DNA of 64,000 bases from contig JADLFW010000040.1 of assembly GCA_020849615.1 (NCBI GenBank), positions 62,001-126,000 on the forward strand. The letters are read 5' to 3'. Positions 12,327-49,123 of this stretch are shown here, piece by piece. This DNA comes from Phycisphaerales bacterium. GTDB lineage: Bacteria > Planctomycetota > Phycisphaerae > Phycisphaerales > UBA1924. Position 1 is the first letter of the stretch, and every line of letters starts with the position of its first letter. The notes under the pieces were generated by a model, which saw only the letters and a list, made by a program, of their open reading frames with translations, was not told where the DNA came from and made no database searches. The position numbers and the translations under genes are program-made.

Positions 12327-12373
12327 AAGTGCCCCCCGAAGGACTCGAACCTTCGACCCGCTGATTAAGAGTC
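12327..12373 (-). repeat. distal attachment site: 3' fragment of tRNA-Lys
   Basis: These 47 bp are identical to the end of the tRNA-Lys gene at the other end of the island. They cover the anticodon-stem 3' half, the T arm and the 3' acceptor strand, but not the 5' half of the tRNA, so this copy is not a functional tRNA. It marks the boundary with the ars operon, which would have been the original neighbour of the tRNA. Confidence 0.92.
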
Positions 12374-16422: not shown

Positions 16423-18036
16423 TCATAGGCCGGACATTGCGCGGCCCAGCACCTCACCGATGGCCTCCAGGTCATCGCGGTCCTCGATTGTATCGGGGTG
16501 CAGCGAGCGCCACGCTTGCGCCGATCTTGAGTCGGCCTTGCCAAACAGGATCAGCCCCACATGCGGATGCCGCGCGCGCCAGGCCTTGGCGACGGCAACG
16601 GCCGCATTCGTGGGTTCCAAAATCCAGATGTCCGCACCCGCCGGGTCACTGCCGGACGCTACTCGGACGCCGGCCGCTTCGAGCAAGTTCTGAATCAAAG
16701 CCGCGGCGCGTCCATCCGTCAGCGTGACCACGGCACGCAGCGCCTTCGAGGGTCGGGCCGCCGGACCCTCCCCGCGGGCGACTGGAAGCAGAATCGCCAC
16801 GGTCGTGCCTCGACCGGGCTTGGATTCAATCTGGATTGACCCGCCGGCACGGCTGACAACCCTGGCGACAAGTGGAAGACCAAGTCCGGTGCCCAGCCCG
16901 CGGGGCTTGGTTGTGTAGAACATGTCCAAGGCATTCCGCTGAACCGCGGCCGACATGCCAAGCCCGTTGTCGGTAACACCAAGTTTGACCTGCGTGCCCC
17001 TCTTGGTGGCCTTCGCCCAGACTCGCACATGCCCCTTGCGACGGTTCCAGTCGGCCGGGATCGCCTCACCCGCGTTCACAATGAGGTTTAGGACCGCCTG
17101 TGTCAAGCCATGGGCTGAGACACTAACCTCCGGTAATCCGGCTGGCAGGGACACGTTGACCTGTACGTGCTTGGGCACGGCCTTCGTGAGCAGTGGTCCG
17201 ACGTGCACCCACCACGAGGCCAAATCGGTGGCGAAACGCTCAGGATCTTCACCATCCGCGTCGATCGCCAGAAAATGCAGGCCATCCGCGAGCTGCTGGA
17301 GGTAGGTCGCACTCCGATGGACGGCGTCGATGTGGTCGCGCACTCCTGATTTCCTAGTCATCGCGCGGGCGGCCTCAAGGTGAGCTCGCACTGGCAGGAG
17401 CACATTGTGCATGTCATGGCCCAAGCCGGCGGCCAAGGCGCCGATCGACGCCAAGCGATCCGCCATGCGCAGCCGAAGGTGCGCCGACTGGAGAGCGGAG
17501 GTCTGCTCGGCAAGGAGGTCGTGAAGCCGCGAGGTGTCTGCAGACTTTGCAACTGAATCGTCCGACTTCACGCCGTCCTCTCGGTTGCTCTTGTCCGCCA
17601 CACCTGCTTCGGAGTGCTGGCTGAGGTCCCGAATAATGCCAACGAACAACGGCGCCGTCTCACCCGGGACGTCGACTCGCGAGACGGAGAGTTCTATCGG
17701 GAAGAACGTCCGGTCCTTGCGGACGGCCTCGAATCGCCGGATACGGTTCAGGTGTTCGGTCCGTCCCGTTTGATGATACTTGGCGAGGTATCCGTCGTGA
17801 GCTGAACGGTGCGGCTCGGGCATGAGAATGCTGACATTCTGTCCGACGAGTTCAATCGGCGTCCAGCCGAATACTCGCAGCACCGAGTCGCTGGCCGACT
17901 GGATGACCCCTGCGCTATTGATGGTGACGATCGGGTCAAGTGTGGCGGCAAGGACCGCCTTGTAGGGGACGACGCTGGAGCCGCCGAGATTCGTGGCAGG
18001 CGGCCGTCTCTTGCGCTCTGTGCGATTGCCGGGCAT
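16423..18036 (-). CDS. FixL-like PAS-haem sensor histidine kinase with degenerate receiver
   Basis: A soluble kinase of 537 residues. A PAS domain (about 25-140) closely resembles the FixL oxygen sensor: it contains VGQNVSILMPEPHRSAHDGY, where His80 aligns with the FixL haem-ligand His and Arg100 with the arginine that contacts haem-bound oxygen. This points to O2 or NO sensing. Next come a dimerisation/His region (LGHDMHNVLLPV), an HATPase with N-box LNLIVNAGEAI and G-boxes DNGLGM and GLGTGLGLPL, and a C-terminal receiver-like domain that lacks the usual phospho-acceptor Asp. The gene abuts the response-regulator gene downstream. Confidence 0.85.
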   Translation of the reverse strand: MPGNRTERKRRPPATNLGGSSVVPYKAVLAATLDPIVTINSAGVIQSASDSVLRVFGWTPIELVGQNVSILMPEPHRSAHDGYLAKYHQTGRTEHLNRIRRFEAVRKDRTFFPIELSVSRVDVPGETAPLFVGIIRDLSQHSEAGVADKSNREDGVKSDDSVAKSADTSRLHDLLAEQTSALQSAHLRLRMADRLASIGALAAGLGHDMHNVLLPVRAHLEAARAMTRKSGVRDHIDAVHRSATYLQQLADGLHFLAIDADGEDPERFATDLASWWVHVGPLLTKAVPKHVQVNVSLPAGLPEVSVSAHGLTQAVLNLIVNAGEAIPADWNRRKGHVRVWAKATKRGTQVKLGVTDNGLGMSAAVQRNALDMFYTTKPRGLGTGLGLPLVARVVSRAGGSIQIESKPGRGTTVAILLPVARGEGPAARPSKALRAVVTLTDGRAAALIQNLLEAAGVRVASGSDPAGADIWILEPTNAAVAVAKAWRARHPHVGLILFGKADSRSAQAWRSLHPDTIEDRDDLEAIGEVLGRAMSGL

Positions 18037-29161: not shown

Positions 29162-30514
29162 TCAGGGGAAAATGCCGCGCTCGGCGTATACCTGCTCGAT
29201 CCGCCGCAGGGCGGCGGCATACGCCGCGCTGCGCCAATCCAGCGATTTCTCCGCTGCCATCTCCTTCACTCGCGCGTAGGCATGCTCAAGGATCTGTCTC
29301 AGGCGTTGATCCACCTCGTCGGCGTTCCAAGCCGTGCCGCCCCGGTTCTGGAGCCACTCGAAATAACTCACGATCACCCCGCCAGCGTTGCAGAGCACGT
29401 CGGGTATCACAGCGATGCCGCGCTCGTGAAGCACCGCGTCGCCCTCGGAGGTCGTCGGGCCATTGGCGCCCTCGGCGACGAGCCGGACCTTCAGCATCGC
29501 GGCCGTCTCCGCAGTGACCTGGTTTTCGAGGGCAGCGGGAACGAACACGTCCGCCTCCGTGCCGAAGAAAACCTCCTCCGAGATCGACTCGGCACCCGGG
29601 AAACCCGCGACGCCGCCGGTCTTCTTCACGTGCTCGGCAAGGGCGTCCGCGTCCAAGCCCTCGGACGCTTGTGACCGGATCGCGCCGGTCACGTCCTGCA
29701 CCGCGAGTAGCTTCGCGCCCTTGTCCTTCAGGATGCGGGCCGCCCAGGACCCGACCTTGCCGAAGCCTTGTACCGTGTAGGAGAGATCGGCGACCTTGCT
29801 GCGTTGATCCGCGGCCCACATTTCGATGAAGTCAACGACTCCCTGCCCGGTTGCCTTGTCGCGTCCCACAGAGCCGCCGGCGCTCACCGGCTTGCCCGTA
29901 ACTACGGCCAGCGCCCGGTAGCGCTCCTGGGGCGGCAGCGTCGCCGCGTAGGTGTCCACGATCCACGCCATCGTGCGGGCGTCGGTGTTGACGTCCGGCG
30001 CGGGCACGTCATATCCCGGGCCGATGTTGGCGCCCAGGGCGTACACGAACCGCCGGGTCAATCGTTCGACCTCACGCCGACTGAGCGTGGCGGGGTCGAC
30101 CTGCACACCCCCCTTGGCGCCACCAAACGGGATGTCCACCAGGGCGCACTTGATCGTCATCCAAGCCGCCAGGGCGCGGACCTCGTCCAGGCTCACGTCG
30201 GGGTGGTAGCGGATGCCGCCCTTGAACGGCCCCAGCACGTTGTTGTGCTGCACGCGGTACCCGGAGAACATCTTGACCCGTCCGTCATCCATCCGGACCG
30301 GGAACGTGACGCTCACCTCGCACATGGGGCGAGCCAGGATTTGTCGGACATCGCGCGAGAGACCGATGGCCTCCGCCGCCCGCTCGAACTGGTCCTGGAC
30401 TCGACGGAACAGCGAAGGAGCGCTTTCGTTGACATGCGGGCGCTTCAGGGAGCGCGGCGCCGTTGTCGTCGCAAGGCGTGAGTTCATGGTGGCTGTGCCA
30501 TTCTCGGTTGCCAT
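29162..30514 (-). CDS. glutamate dehydrogenase (Glu/Leu/Phe/Val family)
   Basis: A 450-residue amino-acid dehydrogenase that interconverts glutamate and 2-oxoglutarate plus ammonia. Motifs include [26 protein letters not shown] with the catalytic Lys, [15 protein letters not shown], the NAD(P)-binding [14 protein letters not shown] and [25 protein letters not shown] supports ATG 30514. The cofactor preference cannot be read reliably. An island motif copy lies 79 bp upstream. Confidence 0.9.
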
Positions 30515-39710: not shown

Positions 39711-39785
39711 TGGGCATCAGGTGTGGGGCGGTCGTGCGTGGGGATCTGGACACGCGCACACGCTCCCTCTATCAAGGAGGGCCGA

Positions 39786-40682
39786 ATGAAACGAGCTTCT
39801 TACCTATTGGCTTTCGCAGGCATGACAATGGTCTTGCTTCCCGTGGCGGCCTATGGGCAGAGCGACGCTCCGAGACTTGAAACGGAGGTCCGCAAGCACA
39901 GCACCGCCGTCGAGCAGAAGCTGATCGCCTGGCGCCGGGACATTCATCAGCACCCGGAGCTCGGCGACCAGGAGGTCCGCACCTCCGGCATCGTTGCGGA
40001 ACATCTGCGCGGCCTAGGCCTGGAAGTCCGGACCGACGTCGCCCGCACGGGCGTTGTCGGAATTCTGCGGGGTGCAAAGCCCGGTCGCACGGTGGCCCTG
40101 CGCGCCGACATGGATGCGCTCCCGGTCCAGGAACCCGAGGGATTGCCCTTCGCGTCGAAGGTGACGGCGGATTACTTCGGGCAAAGACTTCCCGTCATGC
40201 ACGCGTGTGGACACGACGCACACACCGCCATGCTCATGGCCTGCGCGGAAGTGCTCGCCGGGCTGAAGGACGAGCTTTCGGGCACCGTGATGTTCATCTT
40301 CCAACCCGCCGAGGAGGGTTCGAGCGTGGTAGCGCCCGCCGACGTCAAGAGCTGGGGGGCCAAGCTGATGCTCGAGGAGGGAATCTTCAAAGACATCAAG
40401 CCCGACGCCGTTTTCGGGCTTCACGTCATGCCCGGCCCATCCGGTTCGATCTCGTATCGCAAAGGAGCGACAACGGCGAGCAGCGACACGCTTGAGATCA
40501 CCATCACCGGGAAGCAGGGCCACGGCGGTATGCCGTGGAATATAGTGGACCCCATTACTACGTCGGCCCTGGTGATCTCGGGCCTGCAAACGGTGGTGAG
40601 CCGGCGCGCCAACCTGCCCGAGTCGCCGCTTCGCCGCGAACGTCCCCTTCGACGACCGCGTCTGTCAGCAGGCGGACGTTGA
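39786..40682 (+). pseudogene. M20-family amidohydrolase, 3'-truncated
   Basis: Signal peptide (residues 1-25), then an M20 peptidase/amidohydrolase with RRDIHQHPELGDQEVRTS, ALRADMDALPVQE, HACGHDAHTAML and FQPAEEGSS. It breaks off inside the dimerisation domain after VVSRRANLPES, at about 40618. From there the reading continues out of frame into an unrelated gene. A normal member has about 430 residues; this has 298, so the catalytic C-terminal part is missing. An AGGAGG box is intact. Confidence 0.82.
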
Positions 40683-41724
40683 CGACCTCAAGCTCCCGCT
40701 CGTCCGCTCGTACCTCAAGGAGATCGGGAGCGCCCTGTACGAGCCGTCGGCACGAATGGAGCTGAGTGAACTCGGCAGACGCATGGCGATTGTCGATGGG
40801 GCCGATGAGTACATCAAGCCACGCAACGTGGGCCTCATGTTCTTCCACGATTCGCCCGAGTCGTGGTTTCCCGGCACCCAGATCGATATCGCGGAGTTCC
40901 CCACCGGTCCTGCGGGCAAGACCATCCAGGAGAAGGTCTTCCGTGGCCCTCTCCAACGGCAGCTCCGCGACGCGCTCGCGTATCTCAAGAACTCCGTCAT
41001 TGAAGAGCGCGTGACCAAGGTGCGCGGCGTCGCCGAGGCCCAGCGGGTTTTTAACTATCCCTACGAGGCTGTCGAGGAGGCCCTTGTCAACGCGGTCTAT
41101 CACCGCAGCTACGAGGAGCGGAATCCGGTCGAGGTCCAGATCCACCCGGACAAGATCGCGATTCTGAGCTATCCCGGCCCGGATGCATCGATCCGACCCG
41201 CCGACCTGAACGCGGGTCAGATTGTACCGAGGAGGTACCGGAACCGACGCATCGGCGAGTTCCTGAAGGAGCTCAAGCTCACCGAAGGACGAGGGACGGG
41301 GATCCCCGCCATACGCGGCGTGATGAAGCAGAACGGCAATCCCAAGCCGACTTTCAAGACTGACTCGAAGAGGACGTACTTTCTCACAGAGCTGCCTATC
41401 AGAGCGGACTTCGCCAAGAGAGAGGCCAAAGACAGGGCCCAAGTCGAGGCCCAAGTGAAGGCCCAAGTGGGGGCCCAAGACCTCTCGCAGACCGAGTTCC
41501 GTATCCTCGATGCCCTCAAGCCGGGCCCCAAGAGCGTCTCCGAGCTCTCCTCCGCCCTCGGCTACAAGTCGCTCGTCGGAGGCTTCAAACAAGCCCTCCG
41601 CAAACTCGAAGCTCTGAAAGCGATCGCTCTGACCATCCCGGACAAGCCCAGGAGTCAGCACCAGAAGCGAGTTCTCACTGAAACTGGCAAACGATTGCAC
41701 AAACAGGGGCGCCGTCGCCAATGA
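40618..41724 (+). pseudogene. 5'-truncated AlbA_2-type ATP-binding protein (putative transcriptional regulator/helicase family)
   Basis: The frame reads back from the stop to the junction with the M20 gene, beginning RRFAANVPFDDRVCQQADV. It continues through IVDGADEYIKPRNVGLMFF, FNYPYEAVEEALVNAVYHRSYE and RNRRIGEFLKELKLTEGRGTGIP. These belong to proteins with an N-terminal AlbA_2 domain followed by a divergent GHKL ATPase, but the AlbA_2 domain is missing. A C-terminal winged-helix-like region follows. ATG 40756 could still give a 322-residue product. Confidence 0.75.
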
Positions 41725-41741
41725 GGGAGATGGCCAAGTGC

Positions 41742-42437
41742 TCATGACCTTGCTCCCTCCTCTTGGATGCCACAGCCAGGCGCCTCCTGAAGACCGAGAT
41801 CACGCTCCTCGCCACCGGATTCTGCTCCGAACGGCCGGACGACCTCGCGACGCAGCCCAAGAGCCTCATAGGTGAGCTTGTCGAATCCCGCGGTTCTTCG
41901 GACGCGGTTCATGGCCCTCAGAATGTTGAGCAGTTGCCTTCGCACCGGGGCGTAGGGTTCGAAGGGGAGGTTCCAGAGCTCCTTCGCGAGTACGCCACGT
42001 TGGCGGTGTGTGGCGAGTTCGACGAACTGGGCCTTGAGTTCGAGGTATCGTCGCTGATCGATCCGGACATGGGGATGGCCCCCTCGAAAGCTCATCGAGT
42101 ATCCGGCGTATCTGACCGGCACCCGCCGGGCATCGCGGAGCTGGTTCTTCTCGCGCTCGAAGAACTCGTGCGTGCCGTGCGTGGCCAGGAGCACGAAGAA
42201 TCGCTCGTGCCGGAGGTACTGGAGGTTCGCGAGCCCCGCCCGCTTGCGGCGGGCCCGCGCCCACTTGGAAATGTCGATGCCGTAGCGGGCGATGAGCTTG
42301 CGGTCGACCGCGGACGGTTCCTTCCCGTCCGGGATTCTCCCGGTGACGTAGAACCAGTAGCCGTGCCCCAGATACGAGACGGCAAGCTGCTGCACGAACC
42401 CCGAGAGGCTCGTCGCGACGCACCTGTACTCCCCCAT
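41742..42437 (-). CDS. conserved-looking basic protein of unknown function, RNA-element associated
   Basis: A 231-residue, Arg/Lys- and Tyr-rich protein starting MGEYRCVATSLSGFVQQLAV. Notable segments are YLGHGYWFYVTGRIPDGKEP, YGIDISKWARARRKRAGLANLQYL, FFVLLATHGTHEFFERE, YSMSFRGGHPHVRID and FEPYAPVRRQLLNILRAMNR. I recognise no named family. The basic, aromatic composition would suit nucleic-acid binding. The frame is open 147 bases further upstream, but ATG 42437 is preferred because protein-like composition begins there and that upstream part is hairpin-rich. The apparently non-coding structured region directly precedes it on the same strand, without a Shine-Dalgarno. Confidence 0.7.
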   Translation of the reverse strand: MGEYRCVATSLSGFVQQLAVSYLGHGYWFYVTGRIPDGKEPSAVDRKLIARYGIDISKWARARRKRAGLANLQYLRHERFFVLLATHGTHEFFEREKNQLRDARRVPVRYAGYSMSFRGGHPHVRIDQRRYLELKAQFVELATHRQRGVLAKELWNLPFEPYAPVRRQLLNILRAMNRVRRTAGFDKLTYEALGLRREVVRPFGAESGGEERDLGLQEAPGCGIQEEGARS

Positions 42438-42456
42438 GGTCCGCGTTATGCCGCAT
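42433..42456 (-). repeat. 24-bp imperfect direct repeat, copy at ORF start
   Basis: Matches 43822-43845 in 21 of 24 positions, with the central CCGCGTTATGCC identical. This copy contains the ATG of the downstream ORF; the other copy contains a matching CAT/ATG in a hairpin. Together they bracket 1.39 kb. Confidence 0.7.
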
Positions 42457-44144
42457 GACCGCTCCGCCGTCACGCCAAAGACGTCGGTTGTTTGGGGCAC
42501 AACCGACAAAGCCGCGAACCGTCTAGGAATCCTCGCGACGAGCGGTAGCTCGCGACGTTCGAACACCGTCGCGGAGCCCGCCAATCTGCGGCCGTTGCCG
42601 CGAAACCTGCGCGTTCACCTTCGCTGCACGCACCTCCTTCGCGGCACTACCGCGGGACGGCCGCTGGTTTCCCAGATCGGCCGTCCCCAATCCATAGCGG
42701 TAGCGCCGCTGATAACCTGCCGATGCACGGCGGTGTACCCAGGGCACACCTCGCCCGTGCATCGTCGTTCCGCCGCCACACCTGCCCCGCTCTCCCGAGC
42801 GGGACCGTTCTGGCCGCAGCACTTTCTTCCCAAGAGCCGGGAGGGGCGGGGGACCACGAGTCCCCCGCCCCTTGCATCCCGGCAAGCAGTTCCGAACACG
42901 AATCACCCGTCGGCCCTTTCGTCGTCCCCGGACCGCTCACGCGGTCCACGCCCGGCACCACCCGTCAGCGTGTGGGGAACGGGTCGCGACTGCCTTGCCG
43001 CGAACACCGCCCGGCTCCCGCCGGCTTTCTACTCGGGCCACACTCCCTCTCTGCGGGGTTTGAAGCACCCGGATGTCGCCATCCGGGCACCGGGTACCAC
43101 CCCGGCGCCCGCAGAGATTCCCGCGTTAGTGAGACTCGTCGCGCGTTCGGTCACGTCGGTAGAGGGTGATACCCCTCGGGCCGGCTGTCGCCTCCACGGG
43201 TCTCCCGACCCGTGCGTGTTTGCGGCCGCTCGCGAGCGGCCGATTTCCGGGGACAGAAACCAGAAGCTTCCCCGTACCCGTCGACAGCGGTCTTTCCCGG
43301 TTCGGTACCGTCTCCGAACGCGCTTACCGGCAAGGGCTCGTCGCCCCTTTCATGGTTGAGCTTTTCATCGTCGGGCGTTTCGCCCGATCGCCGAGCCTGA
43401 TGAGGGCCCGGTCGTCGCTGTCGCCAGCGACGAACTCCCCACGCCGGACAGGTTGAAGTGGCCGCTCCCTTCCGGGAGTATTGGCCCGTCATCCCCCTGT
43501 GCGGGATTTTCACCCGCTTCGAGCATCACGGCCTCAGAAAGTTCTGAGGTTTTTCCGCGTCGCCCGGTCTCGACCGCGGCGACGCATCGGATAGAACACA
43601 CGGATTACCGCCACGACATCCTGTCGCGGGTTTACTCGTGTGAGCCTCCGTCGAGCTGGACGAGCCACTCTCATGGCAATCCAGCTCTACGGGTGCGGGG
43701 CGTGTCGGTTGGTATCTCCGACCCCTTAGCCTGGTTGGTGGCCAGGTTTACCGGGTGCCCCGCCGCCGTTCGGACCGCCTCAAGCACGCGTTGAACGTGA
43801 ATCGACGACCATGGGACTGCTCCCATGCGCCGCGTTATGCCACATCGGTGCCAGGGCTCAATGGAAATCCCTTTCGCGGGGCGTCGCGAATGGGAGGCTG
43901 GGGATTTCTTCCCCTCAGGCTCAGAACCGATCCGGCACCGGGGGGGCCGGCCAGCTTGGGCTGCCGGCTTCTGGCCGCCGCATCGGGGCCACTCTGGGGT
44001 GAGCCCCGACGACGACGTCCGAATCCGGCACGCGACCTTCGCGCGTATGCTCGGCTTTCGCTGACGAGCGACGCGCCAGACTCCCGAACGTCTACGACTG
44101 GTTTGGTTCTCGCCGCTGACCGCGAACGCGTTGGACGTTCAGCA
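42438..44144 (-). ncRNA. candidate giant structured RNA (undetermined ends)
   Basis: No reading frame here looks like a protein, but the stretch is packed with strong hairpins. On the minus strand seven close with GNRA loops: 42664 (GAAA), 42786 (GGGA), 42930 (GTGA), 43011 (GGGA), 43068 (GCGA), 43195 (GGGA) and 43465 (GGAA). On the plus strand these loops would be pyrimidine-rich, so the RNA reads toward the ORF at 42437. Other elements are a 12-bp stem (42843-42854 with 42860-42871), a three-way junction (43049-43116), nested stems at 42654-42687, 42722-42763 and 43653-43687, and 9-bp and 8-bp stems at 42483-42507 and 43557-43585. The core is 42.45-43.85 kb and may extend to 44.14 kb. Class unknown; a divergent group II intron relic is the main alternative. 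Confidence 0.65.
43822..43845 (-). repeat. 24-bp imperfect direct repeat, upstream copy
   Basis: Partner of the copy at 42433-42456. On the minus strand it reads into a 6-bp hairpin (43811-43826, loop GCAG) that includes the ATG-like triplet. It may mark the 5' end of the structured RNA or a boundary of a small mobile unit. Confidence 0.65.
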
Positions 44145-45173
44145 TCACCCGGAAGAGCACCTCGCACCAACCAGCTCTTCGACCTCAAGAACCCGCCCGC
44201 CATCCGCGGTCCACTGTTGCACGCCCACGTGATACTCGAATATGTGCACCTGTCGCTTGTCGTCGTCGAGTGCATCGGTCACTACGCACAAACGGTATTG
44301 GTCCCGCGTGGCACGGGCTGTCATGCATGCTCTCTCGCTCGGAGTCAGTTCGCACACGATTCCTGAGCTCGAACAGCCCTTCACTTCCAGGAGCAGTTCC
44401 TCCCCACTCCGGGCAGCTCGTGGTTTGGCTAGGAAGTCATACCCCAAGCCCATCTTGCGTGACCTGTCCTCCAGTTCCCAGTCGGCCTCGAAGCGACGCC
44501 GGATTGCGCTCATCGCGGCATGCTCGACCTCGATTCGTTTCGCCGGGTCTGGCTGTCGTCCGGGCTTGTCGCTACCAGTGCGGCGCCCTTGTTTTGGTGC
44601 CGGACCATCAGACTTCGCGCCCAATCGTGTCTCGACTTCTCGGAGAAACGGCAGTCCTCGATCGTCCATGAAGCGGACGTTCGACTGTCCCATGCCCCAA
44701 GGAACTTCGGGCTTACGACAGTCTGGGACCGGGTAGAGCCGTCGGTTATCGAGCGGAATCAGGTGAGCATTCTTCGCGTCCACGACGATGTTGTAGTTGT
44801 TCCTCGATTCCAGATCGGGGCTGGGGTGCCGCCTGCCTTCCATGCTTCGGTAGATAGTGGCATCGTCATACCACCCCACGATGAACCGCCCGCCCTTCGG
44901 ATGTGTTGCGGTCCAGAACACACGTACTCCCTTCACCGACTCTGCCCCGCTGGGTGCCCCGAGTTTCTCGATCGCGATCGTGAAGTGCGGCGCATTCGCG
45001 ACGTACCCGTAGATGCGTCCTCGGTACGGCAGGAAGTTGTGGATCTCAAAGCCAGTGCCGTGCTGTGCTATCCAGCTTCCGCCGTTGAATGGCGGATCCG
45101 CTTTGACGTTGCCCCGGTATTCCCTCATCCACGCCGTGTTGCAGAACAGAACCGCCGGAGCTTGTTTCGACAT
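44145..45173 (-). CDS. DUF3883 domain protein, putative PD-(D/E)xK nuclease-like
   Basis: A 342-residue protein. The C-terminal ~120 residues fit DUF3883: VEHAAMSAIRRRFEADWELEDRSRKMGLGYDFLA, ELLLEVKGCSSSGIVCELTPSERACMTA, and YRLCVVTDALDD. The D...ExK pattern of restriction-type nucleases is present (GYDF and EVK). The N-terminal ~150 residues (VLFCNTAWMREYRG, GWYDDATIYRS) form an unassigned domain that could be a recognition module. AAGGAAG precedes ATG 45173. Its position near the integrase suggests a defence role, inferred only. Confidence 0.7.
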   Translation of the reverse strand: MSKQAPAVLFCNTAWMREYRGNVKADPPFNGGSWIAQHGTGFEIHNFLPYRGRIYGYVANAPHFTIAIEKLGAPSGAESVKGVRVFWTATHPKGGRFIVGWYDDATIYRSMEGRRHPSPDLESRNNYNIVVDAKNAHLIPLDNRRLYPVPDCRKPEVPWGMGQSNVRFMDDRGLPFLREVETRLGAKSDGPAPKQGRRTGSDKPGRQPDPAKRIEVEHAAMSAIRRRFEADWELEDRSRKMGLGYDFLAKPRAARSGEELLLEVKGCSSSGIVCELTPSERACMTARATRDQYRLCVVTDALDDDKRQVHIFEYHVGVQQWTADGGRVLEVEELVGARCSSG

Positions 45174-45387: not shown

Positions 45388-45415
45388 TTGACGTGTCAGC
45401 AAACGTGTTTACACT
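45388..45415 (+). promoter_or_regulatory. promoter/operator of the XRE-ImmA pair
   Basis: TTGACG, a 16-bp spacer and TACACT lie 20 bp before the XRE gene's ATG. The spacer carries two ACGTGT half-sites 12 bp apart, suitable for binding by the XRE repressor. A near copy in inverted orientation lies behind the pair. Confidence 0.6.
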
Positions 45416-45434
45416 TTGGGGAAGGAGCCCGTCG

Positions 45435-45827
45435 ATGGCGAAGAAGTCAGGGACCAGACCGAAGTCGATCGGAGAGCTGCTCCGCACCCAGCGTGTGGAG
45501 GTTCTGGGCGTGGGGCTCCGCGAGATCGCCAAGTCCCTGAAGGTCTCCCCCGCGTACATCACCGACATCGAGTACGGCCGCCGCATTCCGTCGCAGGACC
45601 TGCTCCCGCTGATGGCCAAGGCGTACTCGCTCCCCGAGGCCGAGCTGCGTGCCGGCTTCAACCGTCCCTCCGAGGAGGTCGTGGAGCTCGCGAGCGCCAA
45701 CCCCACCGCCGCGGAGAAGACGCCGGAGTTCCTCCGCAACGCCAAGAATCTCTCGCCCGCGCAGTGGGACTCGCTCATCAAGCAGGCCAAGAAACTCGCC
45801 GGCGAGTCCGGGGGGGGCGCTGCGTGA
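45435..45827 (+). CDS. XRE-family transcriptional regulator
   Basis: A 130-residue DNA-binding protein with a Cro/CI-type helix-turn-helix (GLREIAKSLKVSPAYITDIEYGRRIPSQDLLPLMAKAY). GGAG is well spaced before ATG 45435. The stop overlaps the start of the ImmA-like protease (GTGA). Such pairs in integrative elements form a repressor/anti-repressor protease switch, as with ImmR/ImmA. Confidence 0.88.
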   Translation: MAKKSGTRPKSIGELLRTQRVEVLGVGLREIAKSLKVSPAYITDIEYGRRIPSQDLLPLMAKAYSLPEAELRAGFNRPSEEVVELASANPTAAEKTPEFLRNAKNLSPAQWDSLIKQAKKLAGESGGGAA

Positions 45828-47460: not shown

Positions 47461-47750
47461 ACGACCGTTTCGTCATCCCCGGCATCCTGCCGCCGCTGTA
47501 CCGGCGAGAGCCCGACGGCCGGCTTGTCGAAGTTGCGCCCGCAATGCCCTGTCCTGACCTGCTCACCGAGGAGGAGGCCATCCGCTACCTCCGGCTCGAC
47601 CTCATCGATGTGGAGAGCCCCGAGGACACGCTCCGCCGCTACCGCAGGCAGGGGCTCGTCCGCGGCACCCAAGTCGGCAGGTGTGTTCGGTACAGAAGAT
47701 CGGAGCTGGAGCGATTCCTCGAACGGATCACGGAGAACAATCCCAGGTAG
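47457..47750 (+). CDS. excisionase-like helix-turn-helix protein
   Basis: A 97-residue protein with a MerR/excisionase-type motif (LLTEEEAIRYLRLD...TLRRYRRQGLVRGTQVGRCVRYRRSELERFLE). It lies 17 bp before the integrase gene and overlaps the upstream gene by four bases, as expected of a recombination directionality factor. Confidence 0.7.
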   Translation: MNDRFVIPGILPPLYRREPDGRLVEVAPAMPCPDLLTEEEAIRYLRLDLIDVESPEDTLRRYRRQGLVRGTQVGRCVRYRRSELERFLERITENNPR

Positions 47751-47767
47751 AGAAGGGATGGTGGACC

Positions 47768-49123
<1,356 letters not shown>

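Follow-up and report, generated by a model that had tools for sequence, protein, structure and literature searches.

A divergent circularly permuted group II RNA and its AcpG-related companion protein predicted in a Phycisphaerales genome

Does a long, densely folded, apparently noncoding DNA region beside an unassigned open reading frame (ORF) encode a giant RNA of a new class, or an RNA of a kind that has already been described? This question is raised by positions 41,742 to 44,144 of a 64,000-nt stretch of DNA from a Phycisphaerales bacterium (assembly GCA_020849615.1, contig JADLFW010000040.1, positions 62,001 to 126,000), which was analyzed as a whole and is called the window below. A preliminary description had proposed a structured RNA of 1.4–1.7 kb, with an ORF beginning right at its end, that would rival or exceed OLE, GOLLD, and ROOL. 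Judged by its sequence features, the RNA is a divergent member of the described circularly permuted (CP) group II (T-large) class and not a new giant RNA class, and profile comparisons place the ORF in the protein superfamily that includes AcpG. CP group II RNAs, a rare class, are large ribozymes that occur naturally and to which no role has been assigned. The observation that is new here is the reverse transcriptase (RT)-like predicted fold of the ORF family, together with its profile alignment to the RT region from motif C to the thumb.

Strand, extent, and architecture of the RNA

On the minus strand, positions 42880–43820 contain seven GNRA hairpins with stems of at least 5 bp, compared with none on the plus strand and with a mean of 0.33 and a maximum of 3 on the minus strand of 500 Markov-1 shuffles. 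One of the seven, at 43079, has a stem of 12 bp. Both strands fold far below their shuffles (z of –7.07 on the minus and –8.61 on the plus strand, 20 shuffles each), so energy alone carries no strand information, and the strand is given by the GNRA loops and by conservation. Upstream of homologous ORFs, the RNA region shows conservation at the DNA level, in pieces of 66–80% identity, and the longest stop-free minus-strand frames in 42481–43820 have 106, 124, and 137 codons. Collectively, these results upheld the earlier view of a large folded RNA on the minus strand that contains no convincing protein frame. The proposed extent had to be reduced, as the conserved RNA covers only about 42880–43810, or approximately 930 nt, and nothing was found to tie 43811–44144 to it. 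The ORF most likely begins not at the RNA end but after a less conserved leader of about 440 nt.

In the parts of the published account drawn on here (PMC8637638), CP group II RNAs have the order D5-D6-linker-GGGCG-D1-D2-D3-D4 (D1 to D6 being group II domains 1 to 6), average about 900 nt in size, and are defined by the splice sites GGGCG and NU with a linker of 15–86 nt between them. The linker is excised as an RNA circle, leaving a branched RNA, and members from five species self-splice in vitro (PMC8637638). The collection of Roth et al. 2021 comprises about 290 sequences, and its carriers include the plasmids pTT8 and pPNAP05, the latter with a 32-nt linker (PMC8637638). The window RNA resembles this class in its domain order, the triad and bulge of D5, the bulged A of D6, the GGGCG and NU splice sites, the short linker, the hairpin with the exon-binding site (EBS), the size near 900 nt, and the AcpG-type ORF. 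The features of the locus, in part predicted, are as follows.

42880 to 43810 (ends approximate), minus strand: CP group II RNA core with 5′ region, D5, D6, linker, D1, and following domains, delimited by DNA conservation upstream of homologous ORFs and by covariation
43653 to 43687, minus strand: D5-like hairpin with AGC triad, GAGA tetraloop, and 3′ bulge UCG; 13 pairs, the two helices paired in 99.2% and 100% of cells over 16 sequences
43589 to 43649, minus strand: D6-like hairpin with the putative branch-point A bulged at 43592 (in UUCUAUCC); 11 pairs, 8 with both-sided changes
43566 to 43585, minus strand: linker of 20 nt, predicted to leave as an RNA circle, between the 3′ splice site GAU (43588–43586) and the 5′ splice site GGGCG
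43566 to 43571, minus strand: candidate intron-binding site (IBS) GAGACC at the end of the linker
43552 to 43565, minus strand: predicted 5′ splice site and start of D1, GGGCGACGCGGAAA; a single match in the window, 0.03 expected
43225 to 43456, minus strand: strongly conserved part of D1, basis of the covariance model R1; 56 predicted pairs, 34 with both-sided changes
43256 to 43261, minus strand: EBS1 candidate GGUUUC in a D1 hairpin loop, pairing 6/6 with the IBS, one pair being G-U
42960 to 43224, minus strand: remainder of D1 plus the domains after it; both-sided changes in 31 of 45 predicted pairs
42438 to 42879, minus strand: less conserved leader between RNA core and ORF, which may contain D4; a short conserved patch near 42654–42704 is common to loci L005, L023, and L024
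41742 to 42437, minus strand: AcpG-superfamily ORF of 231 amino acids, ATG at 42437 to stop at 41742, with predicted RT-like palm and thumb and no YxDD

An alignment of 16 loci revealed, close to the 5′ end of the RNA, an AGC-triad hairpin with a tetraloop and a 3′ bulge, followed by a bulged-A hairpin and then by GGGCGAC. The window thus has the order D5-D6-linker-GGGCG-D1 that distinguishes CP group II RNAs. The triad is AGC in 13 of the 16 rows and CGC in three cyanobacterial rows, while the bulged A of D6, the 5′ splice-site GGGCGA, and the 3′ splice-site AU do not vary among the 16. The 24 pairs of D5 and D6 hold in 97.7% of cells, 16 of them with both-sided changes, and the covariation score of 0.614, compared with 0.176 in shuffles, was reached by none of 500 shuffles. 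The same structure slid by one to three columns pairs at most 52.9% of cells, a comparison biased toward the unslid version because the window's own row served for drawing the structure. Alignment A3 is without L002–L006 and L009–L011, alignment A5 without L006, L010, and L011, and the nhmmer profile without L005, L009, and L011. In A3, the cyanobacterial rows L032 and L033 have CGC for AGC in the triad with the compensating pair present. The A of the triad can pair with a U in 13 of 16 rows here, whereas the published account describes it as apparently unpaired (PMC8637638).

The motif GGGCGACNNGGAMA occurs once in the window, compared with an expectation of 0.03, and the same motif also stands after D5-like hairpins at published-type loci. 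Among 15 parsed loci, the linker measures 16–26 nt in 13, 12 nt in L032, and 100 nt in L089. The rule used for delimiting it gave 32 nt on pPNAP05 (from CUCAAU to GGGCG), which is the published length.

The EBS1 candidate was found in a scan of about 540 columns at two offsets over 15 loci, in which its loop was the 5-nt segment of D1 with the highest IBS-paired fraction (91% of cells; z of 3.3 from 60 permutations), the choice having been made by that fraction and not by the highest z. The segment with the highest z (11.8) was set aside, as only 43% of its cells paired and its columns were nearly constant. In the published-type loci, an EBS hairpin with the pattern GCTYTGG was found in 5 of 12, always as the best of several offsets, and it pairs with the IBS at 6/6 positions in Thiothrix, Paraburkholderia, and Azotobacter, 5/6 in B. 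glumae, and 4/6 in pTT8. The pattern matched at other places in three further Thermus loci, with 3–5 pairs, and had no match in four of the 12, among them pPNAP05, where an EBS hairpin is present and pairs 6/6 with the IBS. A stricter pattern gave 3–4 pairs at other places in the published-type loci. The D1 model R1 located the RNA upstream of the ORF in Planococcus (35.6 bits, E = 2.9e-12). When R1 was run with filters off over 84 kb, ranks 2–4 were the D1 regions of three proteobacterial loci among 11 of the published type (E of 0.018–0.021), each at the right place and on the right strand.

Several results weigh against the assignment to the CP group II class. R1 gave no meaningful score at D1 of the other 8 of these 11 loci. 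Similarity in sequence to pPNAP05 or pTT8 alone is not significant; the window RNA is too divergent from the published CP RNAs for BLASTN, which found no match on the plasmids, and the nhmmer profile scored 4.5 bits on pPNAP05 at D5-D6-GGGCGAC while one of 20 shuffles reached 5.7. Among the five covariation measures, there is one, the count of further pair types in D5 and D6 (35, compared with 29.7), that 15 of 500 shuffles reached. Finally, the published account, as far as it is drawn on here, reports that the Polaromonas CP RNA was expressed in vivo with no processed RNA seen (PMC8637638).

Searches with Rfam 15 found one tRNA in the whole window and no group II or large-RNA match at gathering scores, those for OLE, GOLLD, and ROOL included; at E values up to 5, only SCARNA23 and COG2908 appeared in 41700–45000, both far below their gathering scores. 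As a control, pTT8 (whole) and bases 1–50,000 of pPNAP05, which carry published CP RNAs, also gave no match. Since Rfam misses the published CP RNAs as well, its silence on the window RNA is uninformative. The window RNA shares with OLE, GOLLD, and ROOL the property of being a large bacterial RNA, but its architecture is different, and its length of about 930 nt is that of a CP group II member. Nor does the locus have the canonical group II intron order of D1 to D6 with an RT-type intron-encoded protein. The kinship with group II introns, which the preliminary description had held to be incompatible with its proposal, was in substance found, although no Rfam group II model scores.

The companion ORF and its linkage to the RNA

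The ORF most likely starts at the ATG at 42437 and not at the TTG at 42584, because protein conservation begins at the former. Its first 206 residues include 38 K/R, 19 D/E, and 25 F/W/Y, in keeping with the earlier description of a basic, aromatic protein. No Pfam family scores above its cut-off and no NCBIfam family matches. A sequence profile of the ORF family reached a best E of 0.075 in the PDB; PADLOC gave no match for the window ORF, with one of 19 relatives matching PDC-M02A (E = 0.0042); and three scans of viral contigs gave no relative.

AcpG (TTHC007) lies near CP RNAs and, according to the parts of the published account used here, has no homology to a known protein class and no described function; CP RNAs without acpG nearby also exist (PMC8637638). 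A literature search found AcpG and "group II intron" together only in that paper. The profile A1, built from 19 sequences of the window's ORF family, was compared with 1348 ORFs of 16 plasmid loci, and the top 11 all adjoin or lie near CP RNAs. Four of them are of the window's clade type, five are proteobacterial (E of 5e-10 to 3e-5), and two are from T. aquaticus (6e-5 and 0.0044). By these profile matches, the window ORF is a member of the superfamily that includes AcpG, linked to the pTT8 protein through intermediates; the two are also similar in size. A direct link is less favorable to this conclusion, as A1 gave E = 6.8 for pTT8 AcpG and 0.12–1 for three other Thermus AcpGs, and BLASTP of the window ORF to pTT8 AcpG gave no match.

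A pattern scan of 84,980 species genomes, which can find close relatives only, gave 10 ORF loci of 47–62% identity under titles of Nitrospinaceae, Gemmataceae, Acidobacteria, planctomycetes, Bryobacterales, Bdellovibrionales, and Verrucomicrobia. Most of these titles denote metagenome-assembled genomes (MAGs), in which single host labels may be wrong. Further relatives lie on seven plasmid records (planctomycete, four Leptolyngbya, Calothrix, and Planococcus). Over all records, the titles here name Planctomycetota, Acidobacteria, Nitrospinaceae, Verrucomicrobia, Bdellovibrionales, and Cyanobacteria, whereas the text of the published account, in the parts used, names Deinococcus-Thermus, Firmicutes, and Proteobacteria as hosts (PMC8637638). 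The ORF was present in 8 of 101 genomes (the window's own and 100 relatives; 10 copies) and in 8 of 392 genomes of a phylum sample, four of which are also in the set of 101.

At 26 of the 27 other ORF loci, the ORF is preceded on its own strand by the RNA, which in 23 falls within the DNA examined around the ORF; the ORF is truncated in L028, and the RNA is cut by the contig end in L006. An interval of about 5.2 kb separates the RNA from the ORF in L003 and L004, where the RNA is again upstream and on the strand of the ORF; the ORFs in between we read as ParA- and Rep-like. L010 has only 156 nt upstream before the contig ends, and an RNA piece is found on another contig of the same genome. The loci are in part non-independent (L003 and L004; L020, L025, and L026). 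The MAG of L003 is labeled Gemmataceae and that of L004 Acidobacteria; the two loci share 92% identity over 6.3 kb, suggesting either a recent transfer or an error of binning. Over the 101 genomes, R1 found 10 full RNA copies, each beside one of the 10 ORFs, and one weak partial match (G036, 22 bits); this search used stricter filters that can lose weak matches. Where copies are multiple, three RNA places pair with three ORFs in one genome (G467) and two with two in another (G472). These results provided good grounds for the earlier proposal that the RNA is coupled to its own protein. The ORF lies downstream on the same strand in every locus here in which both are seen, whereas acpG on pTT8 is divergent and upstream.

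A flanking 24-nt direct repeat (88%) was observed around the window RNA, at 42433–42456 and 43822–43845. It was rejected as a general feature, because of the 12 loci tested, the window's was the only one to surpass its 100 shuffles.

Predicted fold of the ORF family and its relation to reverse transcriptases

An AlphaFold2 model of the ORF family from 11 sequences reached a pLDDT of 83.0 and a pTM of 0.75. In a Foldseek search of 350,542 PDB chains, ranks 1–5 were entries of group II intron ribonucleoproteins (RNPs) and ranks 6–9 were retron complexes and the G2L4 RT, followed by norovirus polymerases and a mixture of others. When the most divergent member (L011) was placed first among the same 11 sequences, the resulting second model had a pLDDT of 85.3, and its ranks 1–10 were group II RT, retron, G2L4, and DRT2 entries, headed by an entry that combines a group II intron and its RT (E = 5.3e-4). 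The matched chains were taken to be the RT chains from the titles of the entries. In a viral library, the Foldseek matches were viral polyproteins and RNA polymerases, several of the matches bearing no name.

Profile alignment pointed in the same direction. With hhalign, 23 AcpG-type sequences compared with 26 group II RTs (27 sequences, one of which became a duplicate after trimming) gave a score of 31.2 (P = 0.0018), which none of 400 nulls reached (at most 25.1 in 200 column shuffles and 27.6 in 200 block shuffles). The alignment covers AcpG-type residues 72–146 and, on the RT side, motif C, RT7, and the first part of the thumb; YLRHERFFVLLA falls on VRYADDFIIT and FAGYSMSF on FDFLSFNF. The catalytic YxDD is missing in the ORF, which has YLRHERFF where RTs have VRYADDF, so that the catalytic aspartates are absent.

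Against a relationship to RTs stand the modest Foldseek values (over 19 rows, E of 5e-4 to 0.12, query TM scores of 0.19–0.40, and large root-mean-square deviations), the dependence of both models on the same 11 sequences, and an hhalign probability of only 15%, which falls to 2% in global mode. Addition of the Thermus and proteobacterial sequences lowered the hhalign score to 26.6 (P = 0.0083), and neither Pfam RVT_1 nor GIIM matched the window ORF. Counted in favor of the overall reading given below is that RVT_1 had no match in the window's genome, which is 92.6% complete. GIIM matched in only one (G077) of the 8 ORF-bearing genomes among the 101.

Like group II intron-encoded proteins, the ORF product may have a palm and thumb fold, its models matching RT entries best at modest scores; the two align from motif C through RT7 to the start of the thumb, and, as would follow from a position after D4, the gene lies 3′ of the RNA domains. 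The ORF product differs in its size of 231 amino acids, the 27 RT reading frames compared having 415–921, and in being without YxDD, RVT_1, or GIIM. Based on the models and alignments, the most likely identity of the protein is a degenerate group II-type RT that has kept palm and thumb and lost the catalytic aspartates, and probably a dead maturase. MatK and Prp8 are RT-derived splicing proteins that are not known to have RT activity; they are larger and act on canonical introns or in the spliceosome. If the present reading is true, AcpG would be one more RT turned splicing factor beside them, and the origin of the CP class and of its protein partner would be explained.

Proposed function, alternatives, and genomic setting

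We consider it likely that the locus encodes a CP group II ribozyme and, downstream on that strand, a dedicated AcpG-related protein, a degenerate RT that acts as maturase. Domain order, D5/D6 covariation, splice-site motifs, IBS–EBS pairing, RNA–ORF linkage, and the AcpG profile link are the parts that can be read from the sequences. In the proposed mechanism, the bulged A of D6 at 43592 would attack the phosphate before GGGCG at the 5′ splice site, and the new 3′ end would then attack the 3′ splice site upstream, after GAU, yielding a 20-nt RNA circle and a branched RNA. We infer that the window copy splices in this way and that the protein encoded just 3′ of the RNA binds it and serves as its maturase. 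The protein would descend from an intron-encoded protein. In the published account, such proteins are described as never observed near CP RNAs (PMC8637638). Trimming a tandem pair of ORF-bearing introns to what lies from D5 of the first copy through the ORF of the second would leave the order seen, and there is moderate support for regarding the order D5-D6-circle-D1-…-ORF as a fossil of such a tandem duplication. For the whole of this history, in which AcpG is a shrunken, catalytically dead intron-encoded RT, the order a tandem-intron remnant, and the unit an RNP borne on mobile DNA that makes tiny RNA circles, we see nearly an even chance. The preliminary description had suggested a new RNP or mobile RNA; an RNP carried on mobile DNA is plausible, and the class of the RNA has already been described.

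The alternative that deserves most attention accepts the CP group II RNA but takes the protein for an unrelated plasmid or island protein that does not act on the RNA, its RT-like fold being convergent or an artefact of the models. The modest Foldseek and hhalign values would fit such a protein, as would the published CP RNAs without acpG nearby (PMC8637638) and a second RNA copy on the Calothrix plasmid (L033, 618–978) that has no AcpG-type ORF beside it in the DNA examined. We nevertheless judge this unlikely, since it has to accommodate the 10:10 pairing in 101 genomes and the constant arrangement of the ORF downstream on the same strand, and it needs a coincidence for group II RTs to be the best matches among 350,542 chains for the very partner of a CP RNA.

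Much less probable is that the locus is a decayed, functionless remnant of a canonical group II intron. The patchy distribution (8 of 101 relatives and 8 of 392 in the phylum sample) and the decay of some copies, such as the truncated ORF of L028, are what a remnant would show, but compensatory changes in D5, D6, and D1 and an ORF conserved across several phyla are not. The least credible is a class of giant RNA that is new and has no relation to group II introns, to be set beside OLE, GOLLD, and ROOL, which is mostly refuted already. In its favor is the lack of Rfam group II or large-RNA matches, a lack that extends to pTT8 and to the part of pPNAP05 searched; D5, D6, the splice sites, the EBS hairpin, and the AcpG-type ORF agree with those of the CP class, and it was on the domain order and the splice-site motifs that we rejected this candidate.

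The genomic setting of the preferred reading, a CP group II RNA with a dedicated maturase-like protein, appears to be mobile DNA. A 47-bp perfect direct repeat, representing one end of tRNA-Lys, is found at window positions 12327–12373 and 49048–49094, and a phage-type integrase (47681–49117) lies at one side of the stretch that the repeats bound. The direct repeat and the integrase make it probable that this 36.8-kb stretch, which includes the RNA and the ORF, is an integrated element. One long neighboring ORF taken from each of ten loci revealed no Pfam family in common. ARAGORN called tRNAs at 17681–17773 and 30029–30119, which are absent from the Rfam tRNA matches at gathering score and are possibly false. 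An amidohydrolase-like ORF at 39723–40682 has an end that, from a reading of its translation, is apparently cut short, and on the other side of the RNA, an ORF with a NOV_C domain (PF13020; 44145–45350) adjoins a helix-turn-helix ORF (45393–45827).

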